This document shows, piece after piece, positions 1 to 1,175 of a DNA stretch of 64,000 nt. The stretch is from a bacterium SCSIO 12643 (lineage in GTDB: Bacteria > Bacteroidota > Bacteroidia > Flavobacteriales_G > Salibacteraceae): NCBI GenBank assembly GCA_024398135.1, contig CP073750.1, positions 2,108,001 through 2,172,000 of the forward strand, written 5' to 3'. The stretch's first letter is position 1; every line of letters begins with the position of its first letter. The position numbers and the translations under genes are program-made. The notes below the pieces were generated by a model that was not told the origin of the DNA, did not search any database, and worked only from the letters and a program-made list of their open reading frames with translations.

Positions 1-198
1 GGATGTAAGGAACCAATTGCTAATCATACAATATCCGAAGTAAATGGAACAATTCAATTTAATGTGGAAGTTGAAGAATTAGGAGCATGCAAGCGCCTTA
101 ACTGGGTGACAATTTGGTGTATGGTAAATAAAACCGAAGAAAATCCAACGGTTAGCTTTAAAGAAACAATTACAACTAACGTCAATTATAAAAATTAA
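1..198 (+). CDS. 3' end of an unidentified protein (partial)
   Basis: Frame 1 is open from the first base to a TAA at 196-198, giving 65 residues without a start codon, so the gene begins outside the window. The fragment has three cysteines (residues 2, 30 and 40), a Trp-rich centre and alternating hydrophobic residues, which suggests a beta-sheet-rich, possibly secreted protein. I do not recognise a family. It lies directly left of the attC-like repeat at 249-433 and could be the gene of the preceding cassette. The reading frame is clear; the function is unknown. Confidence 0.55.
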   Translation, partial: GCKEPIANHTISEVNGTIQFNVEVEELGACKRLNWVTIWCMVNKTEENPTVSFKETITTNVNYKN

Positions 199-248
199 CG
201 GTAAAAAAGAAAATAGAATTGAGTGTTGAATCTGGCGAGAAAAACGGT

Positions 249-433
249 TGCTAACAATCGCTATATATAATGCTCCGTTTAAATCTAAACACTACGCTTC
301 TAATTCATTTCACGATAAAGTGTATTTTAGCTTTTAAACCGATAAAAACTTAAAAAACTAAACATTACCTGCACGTGCGTATCCGAAGCCTTCGCCTTTC
401 GAAAACGTACTATACATAGCGGGGACGTTGGCA
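249..433. repeat. attC-like imperfect inverted repeat
   Basis: The ends are TGCTAAC (249-255) and GTTGGCA (427-433), which are reverse complements with one mismatch. Inside them CGCTATATATA (259-269) faces TATACATAGCG (411-421), again nearly complementary. Two short paired boxes on each side, separated by short spacers, is the layout of an integron attC site (R''-L''...L'-R'). A copy of the left half recurs at 902-927, just after the next small gene. The 185-base length is long for an attC site and no integrase gene is present, so cassette identity is an inference. Confidence 0.5.
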
Positions 434-443
434 AACATTTAAA

Positions 444-890
444 ATGAACTCCATGCTTAAAACATTAATTTTCATACCAATCTTAATATTGACCGTCAAT
501 TTAGCACAAGGACAAACTTACAATTACGATTACATTTTTAACGAATGGAAAGAAGGTGAAATTGATATAAATGAAAATGTAAGTGATGGAGGTACACGAA
601 GAGGAGGTTGGGATTTTTTGACAATTAATAAGGACAGCACCGTGATTTATGCTGGTGCTTTTACTTGTGGTTTTGGCTCCAAAAGAATAGGTACTTGGAC
701 TCTTGACAAGCAAAATAATATAATCACCTTTTTATTTAAGAATACTGAAGGATACATAAACAATCCTGAAAATGGTGAAATTGATCTTACAGAAACTTAT
801 CTTATAAAAAAATTGAATGAGACCGAGTTAATACTAATTCATCAAAACGGAAATCCGCCAATACAAATAGGATTCTTTGCAAACCAATAA
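444..890 (+). CDS. Small secreted protein of unknown function, in cassette-like setting
   Basis: 148 residues. The first 23 form a signal peptide (Met-Asn-Ser-Met-Leu-Lys, a hydrophobic run, then a cleavage region ending GQ). The mature part is rich in Trp, Gly and beta-type residues and has a single cysteine (in AFTCGFG); the GTWTL segment recalls lipocalin-like small secreted Bacteroidota proteins, but the match is too weak to name a family. A second ATG lies at 453; I kept the first. The gene starts 10 bases after the attC-like repeat and ends 11 bases before another left half of it, as a gene cassette would. There is no obvious promoter of its own. Confidence 0.65.
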   Translation: MNSMLKTLIFIPILILTVNLAQGQTYNYDYIFNEWKEGEIDINENVSDGGTRRGGWDFLTINKDSTVIYAGAFTCGFGSKRIGTWTLDKQNNIITFLFKNTEGYINNPENGEIDLTETYLIKKLNETELILIHQNGNPPIQIGFFANQ

Positions 891-901
891 TTAAAACAAT
901 T

Positions 902-927
902 TGCCCACAACGGCTATAAGTAATTGC
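902..927 (+). repeat. Left half of a second attC-like site
   Basis: TGCCCAC (902-908) is followed by GGCTATAAGTAATTGC (912-927). This aligns with the left half of the repeat at 249-273 (TGCTAAC, then CGCTATATATAATGC). I could not find the matching right half (expected to resemble ATAGCC...GTTGGGCA) before the gene at 1187, so the site looks truncated or decayed. The remaining 928-1186 shows no gene. Confidence 0.4.
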
Positions 928-1144
928 TTGTTCTCGCCTACTCCTGAAAATCCTCTTTCAACAAATAAATCTCACGAAGTTGGTTCAACATAGTTCCTAT
1001 CGTTCCCACAAACTAGAATATACGAATCTAAAATAACCTGTATGGTTTGTATATGATTGAACTCTAGATTTGATTACGGATTTCTAGGTAGTTCTCATAT
1101 CAATTATGTATTTTCATAGTCAGTGGTAATTATTTAAATTGGAC

Positions 1145-1175
1145 AATTGCTTTTCGCTATTTGTTGAAAGCAATT
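1145..1175. repeat. Inverted repeat just upstream of the DinB-like gene
   Basis: AATTGCTTT (1145-1153) and AAAGCAATT (1167-1175) are perfect 9-base inverted arms with a 13-base loop, ending 11 bases before the ATG at 1187. It may be an operator or an mRNA hairpin in the leader. It lacks a T-run, so it is not a typical terminator. Confidence 0.35.

Follow-up and report, generated by a model that had tools for sequence, protein, structure and literature searches.

The 64,000-nucleotide stretch analysed here (the window, G000:C1:2108001-2172000 of a 4.1-Mb genome) holds close to its start an inverted repeat (249-436) followed by a small gene (444-890). The earlier note had described both, and both are present in the sequence. 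Is this repeat a cassette recombination site and, if so, which enzyme does it belong to? Integrons are defined and searched for via IntI and its extra domain, with the integrase defined by IntegronFinder as PF00589 plus an IntI patch (PMC9668308), and an earlier survey reports almost no complete integrons in Bacteroidetes (PMC9024848). We propose that the window very probably contains a decayed, integrase-less (CALIN-like) piece of an integron-like system, widely distributed among Bacteroidota and run by a tyrosine recombinase denoted BINT; recombination itself was not observed. We read the system as a new integron-like variant, apparently built on an enzyme other than IntI, with its recombination as yet untested.

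An attC-like site between two cassettes

The features at the window's left edge, and the cassette start that lies just outside it, are as follows.

L031:15686, outside the window on the upstream side: start of cassette B, GTTAGAAACC
Window 1..198, plus strand: 3' part of the 159-aa ORF of cassette B (the preceding cassette)
Window 246..255, plus strand: R''-like box GGTTGCTAAC, closing cassette B
Window 246..436, plus strand: attC-like site, comprising R''-like box, spacer AAT, left arm, long variable loop, right arm, 5-nt spacer and R'-like box
Window 427..436, plus strand: R'-like box GTTGGCAAAC, where cassette C and its homology with a second genomic copy both begin; predicted crossover
Window 444..890, plus strand: ORF of the cassette C gene, 148 aa, signal-like N-terminus
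Window 902..950, plus strand: half site, R''-like box TGCCCACAAC with left arm and loop start, GGCTATAAGTAATTGC subtype, without the right half
Window 953..1165, plus strand: array boundary with tRNA-3'-half-like repeat, hairpin and promoter-like leader (by eye); also at L031:13450-13712, L031:15390-15690 and in L033

Within the site, AAC (253-255), AAT and CGCTATATATAATGC pair with CGTACTATACATAGCG, the 5-nt spacer and GTT (427-429). The two ends of cassette B, read from the sequence, are complementary at 9/10 positions (GGTTGCTAAC against GTTAGAAACC). Cassette C breaks this own-end rule, its R' GTTGGCAAAC and R'' TGCCCACAAC not being complementary, and its protein has no Pfam match. The half repeat that the earlier note placed behind the gene does begin 11 bases past the stop, at 902; it is not the identical repeat, rather a related but distinct site subtype (GGCTATAAGTAATTGC...) that lacks the right half.

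A covariance model (R1) built without the window's own site recovered that site at 42.8 bits (E=2.9e-6 in the 4.1-Mb genome; G000:C1:2108243-2108438). The 13 matches in this genome comprise seven in an intact array, three in a degraded array, the window site and two others, and 54/60 relatives (a set that includes the window's own genome) match at E≤0.001. Among 28 control genomes or records, non-Bacteroidota by title and totalling about 108 Mb, three yield matches at E≤1, of which two fall below 0.001 (the best at 1.1e-4 and 33.6 bits), and a class 1 integron plasmid has no R1 match. Model score against these controls confirms the window site as a genuine attC-like site, beyond chance. An absence of other copies, which the earlier note had named as grounds for refutation, is not what we find in this genome or in its relatives. 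The 33.6-bit control match lies in L240 (G141, the genome of the Peregrinibacteria locus L182) and may be chance or a distant relative.

Folding gave a mixed result. The bottom strand of the whole site (201 nt) shows no better folding than shuffled sequences (z=-0.35), conservation being confined to the arms. For the arms alone, the bottom strand reaches -8.6 kcal/mol, compared to -3.8 for the top strand.

An upstream array and an intact system in the same genome

A BLAST search of the window site against its own genome found no second full copy; a half copy upstream revealed an array that extends leftward past the window edge, behind a tRNA-Ala(GGC) gene. The order is tRNA-Ala(GGC), cassette, full site, second cassette, truncated site, repeated leader and cassette B. 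The ends of the first upstream cassette, R' GTTGTACACC and R'' GGTGTACAAC, are perfect complements; those of the second are GTTGTGTGTA and CTACGCACAAC. The upstream full site measures 208 nt (array A, L031:14462-14669) and is not among the 13 R1 matches. The unit of tRNA-3'-half-like repeat, hairpin and promoter-like leader (minus strand in L033) precedes first cassettes, and is similar to the sequence before the integrase gene in L063.

No BINT-family integrase occurs in the window, in agreement with the earlier note, which saw no integrase; one is found elsewhere in the genome, in an intact system ~670 kb away.

G000:C1:1423005-1441309, minus strand: intact system with 382-aa tyrosine recombinase, short palindrome (attI-like) and codirectional cassettes
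G000:C1:1439705-1440850, minus strand: intact BINT gene

Cassettes of the intact array have complementary own ends (GTT..../....AAC). Their cargo includes ArsR, MerT-HMA, cation efflux, AHSA1, glyoxalase, RES and helix-turn-helix proteins and a type I methylase/specificity protein, with no match for 2/10 ORFs scanned. Near 656-659 kb lies a second, degraded integrase that has a palindrome and an array of its own. The integron-cassette layout first suspected for the window is thus supported by an upstream cassette array and by sites of the same kind elsewhere in the genome. The window array is probably inactive: it has one full and one truncated site, and the nearest intact enzyme would have to act in trans, as we infer that it could.

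The intact island (~18 kb) is flanked by an 86-bp repeat (G000:C1:1423005-1423090 and 1441233-1441309, L063), present only twice in the genome, whose second copy amounts to 77 bp at 97% and which contains a T-arm-like TTCGAC motif. By eye, one of the attC-like sites in the intact array apparently contains a transposase-like gene pair (L063:6726-8268). The integrase gene itself was considered as the first cassette and rejected, as its upstream GTT box mismatches the downstream AAC box (by eye).

Strand polarity of the site family

We identified 119 candidate sites, of which 24 were removed by eye as chance before polarity was counted. The right spacer is longer by 1-5 nt in all 95 remaining sites, meeting the criterion of an unpaired, asymmetric central spacer. 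A.C and C.A mismatches number 175, compared to 20 for G.T and T.G; the former type outnumbers the latter in 83 of the 95 sites and is the rarer in one. These A.C mismatches, peaking at arm positions 6-7 and 11-12 across all 119 candidates, correspond to G.T wobbles in the folded bottom strand. With DNA parameters, the arms are more stable on the bottom strand in 90/95 sites, whereas length-matched random stretches divide into 40 bottom, 54 top and 1 equal. The candidate scan rewarded top-strand G.T pairs, so its bias opposed this result. The arms are also observed to covary strongly (0.658, compared to 0.147 when shuffled and ≤0.112 when slid): in alignment A2 (56 of the 62 curated sites in the 115-128-nt class), 262 cells changed on both sides, compared to 82.9 in shuffles, and one alignment pair is never standard (53/53 cells).

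The attC consensus boxes are RYYYAAC and GTTRRRY. The family does not meet this consensus, each box fitting in 9/95, and the invariance of GTT and AAC follows from the construction of the scan. A further attC criterion is extrahelical bases on one arm (PMC2727003). The second refuting outcome named in the earlier note, a fold without the unpaired bases and box spacing of attC, is not borne out by the box spacing and strand asymmetry, which are attC-like; the asymmetry consists of G.T wobbles and unequal spacers, however, and not of proven extrahelical bases. The gap-free arm scan would miss bulges, and mismatches are what it can show.

Conceivably, recombination takes place between ordinary double-stranded palindromes, in the manner of Xer/Cre, and does not involve folded single strands. 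The R boxes measure ~10 bp, many loci have a palindromic attI-like site, and BINT lacks I2, which one account describes as the element that allowed single-strand recombination (PMC7790495). However, the long covarying arms and the consistent bottom-strand wobbles and spacers would have no obvious use in such a reaction. We consider this alternative unlikely, yet by no means negligible. The folded bottom strand as substrate remains an inference, and if BINT does act on hairpins, it manages without I2; a plain double-stranded reaction is also possible.

Cassette ends, integrase linkage and breakpoints

The own-end rule is observed across the family: complementarity over at least 5 contiguous of 7 positions occurs in 12/30 consecutive pairs, compared to 3/52 same-site pairs and 1.1% of random pairs. 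Linkage to BINT is strong, with 43 complete cassettes in the 207,476 bp downstream of BINT genes on the same strand, compared to 2 in the 346,773 bp upstream, and 1 and 2 on the opposite strand. At least one complete cassette is present in 19/44 BINT loci. None was seen in the other 25/44, in part because contigs end early. In 20/34 loci, a first-cassette R' within 190 nt of the BINT stop matches a downstream R'' over 9 nt, compared to 0/34 for a control stretch. An attI-like hairpin occurs in 21/55 loci, as opposed to 32/550 control windows, and is therefore enriched, not universal. Draft contigs of L130, L131, L132, L134 and L136 stop 34 to 87 bp past the integrase stop, which is what assembly breaks at repeated att sites would produce.

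Homology breakpoints at GTT are directly visible in two comparisons. The cassette C gene has a second copy (G000:C1:2752453-2752896, 92% aa identity); the copies share 94% identity over the 500 bp rightward from GTT (window 427), while the 100 bp to its left show 44%, against 50 ± 3% for random pairs. Sought in 60 genomes, the gene was found in this genome (two copies) and as one weak match. Two BINT loci of other genomes, with near-identical integrases, share 94% identity over the 1,500 nt that precede GTT, rising to 97% over the final 100, and diverge at the GTT behind the integrase, with 50% identity to its right; each first cassette has its complementary end further downstream. The second copy of cassette C (G000:C1:2752453-2753893) belongs to an array downstream of a tmRNA gene (L065:9958-10352).

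The location of arrays behind tRNA-Ala and near tmRNA, together with the repeat flanking the intact island, would fit a history in which the window array was moved by homologous recombination or by tRNA-targeted island integration, and not by cassette exchange. This leaves the GTT breakpoints unexplained. We judge it improbable as a replacement for cassette exchange, and it may additionally hold for whole arrays.

BINT lies outside the IntI clade

The catalytic core of BINT is Xer/IntI-like, the top PDB sequence matches being XerA-like chains and IntI4. The IntI-specific I2 region is missing, and alignment with IntI4 is interrupted between residues 193 and 246 of the latter. BINT meets the NCBIfam model NF040815 ('site-specific tyrosine recombinase/integron integrase'); it scores 206.5 against a cut-off of 265 for the integron integrase model TIGR02249, and 198 bits against cut-offs of 335.15 and 329.6 for the curated XerC/XerD models, neither of which is met. 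In 99 genomes of the class, TIGR02249 matches 40 at E≤1e-30, with 36/99 having such a match within an open frame of at least 330 aa (our count of the table); the matches end near profile position 180 and 0/99 reach the cut-off. In contrast, 41/59 positive control genomes pass, mostly at full length. In a tree of 97 rows, IntI forms a clade of 17 rows (100/99) with no BINT inside, and Bacteroidota XerC/D belong to a separate clade (16 rows, 100/100) apart from BINT. A single BINT clade is not rejected (p-AU 0.619; 41 rows, excluding two labelled Firmicutes and Spirochaetota). The latter labels come from metagenome-assembled genomes with BINT-like proteins (L164, L166), reflecting either transfer or binning error.

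These data bear on whether the array could be an ordinary IntI integron (CALIN), transferred into Bacteroidota and merely diverged. Layout, own-end complementarity, bottom-strand polarity and spacer asymmetry are all attC-like, as are the tandem small-gene cassettes, GTT crossover box, variable loop and integrase adjoining the array. Of the criteria for an IntI-type system, a cassette array with attC at each end and complementary own ends is met; the IntI-specific domain is not. BINT moreover carries an extra ~100-aa N-terminal part, conserved bottom-strand G.T mismatches stand where extrahelical bases are expected, R' is rarely GTTRRRY, and an attI-like palindrome lies behind the integrase stop. 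Given the model scores and the IntI clade without BINT, we find an ordinary integron very unlikely. This bears out the caution of the earlier note that a different recombination system could be involved, as the tyrosine recombinase beside a like array in the same genome fails IntI membership. Treponema chromosomal integrons differ in using intI, according to the cited paper, and XerA/XerC/XerD, alike in catalytic core, differ from BINT in its linkage to cassette arrays and its N-terminal part.

It is scarcely credible that the repeats represent RNA or regulatory elements (attenuators, REP/MITE-like) lying between genes by chance: imperfect hairpins do separate codirectional small genes, but an Rfam scan of the window gave no match, the end rule links each repeat with the opposite end of its cassette instead of with its own other half, homology stops at GTT and recombinase linkage is strong.

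Proposed mechanism and distribution

In the integron-like model that we prefer, BINT (~380 aa, Xer-type) would capture promoterless genes as cassettes, each unit starting with GTT+7 and closing with a complementary 7+AAC, behind which comes the left half of its attC-like site. Joining is predicted at the GTT within an attI-like site, a short palindrome directly behind the BINT stop codon, so that the array would grow in the direction of the integrase gene. The bottom strand of the cassette site may fold, with BINT, the inferred catalyst, exchanging one strand at GTT with the attI-like site; by analogy with integrons, replication would resolve the product.

Residues 1-81 of BINT form a small alpha/beta domain in a structure model (pLDDT 85.9). 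Against Pfam, the N-terminal part matches DUF5710 in 13/25 members (best E 1.9e-5) and HARP in 1/25 (E 0.07). It has no PDB sequence match below E 0.25 and no Foldseek match at E≤0.001, HARP ranking 6-7 (E 0.30-0.36). The best VIA match is XPB (Z 6.4, rmsd 2.2 over 59 residues), below the tool's caution level of Z 8. The modelled likeness to HARP and XPB N-terminal domains is thus weak and only suggestive. A tentative hypothesis, which could well prove wrong, is that folded-hairpin cassette recombination evolved in Bacteroidota around a recombinase in which I2 was never present. The bottom-strand G.T wobbles would then be read by a HARP/XPB-DRD-like N-terminal domain (DUF5710-related), taking the role of the I2 helix that reads extrahelical bases. 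The system would offer a natural test of the need for I2 in hairpin recombination, and bears on integron origins.

In the open-access literature, we found no account of cassette systems in Bacteroidota that use a recombinase other than IntI; preprints were not covered, and a description elsewhere is possible. If most of the relatives examined do carry a parallel system, a large store of mobile cassettes would have gone unnoticed, with cargo that here includes metal transport, RES-domain and type I methylase genes. Named carriers of at least one complete cassette include Winogradskyella ursingii, Seonamhaeicola aphaedonensis, Algibacter onchidii, Algoriphagus ornithinivorans, Flavobacterium aciduliphilum, a Rufibacter and Zunongwangia mangrovi, and a relative of the integrase is encoded on a Persicobacter plasmid.
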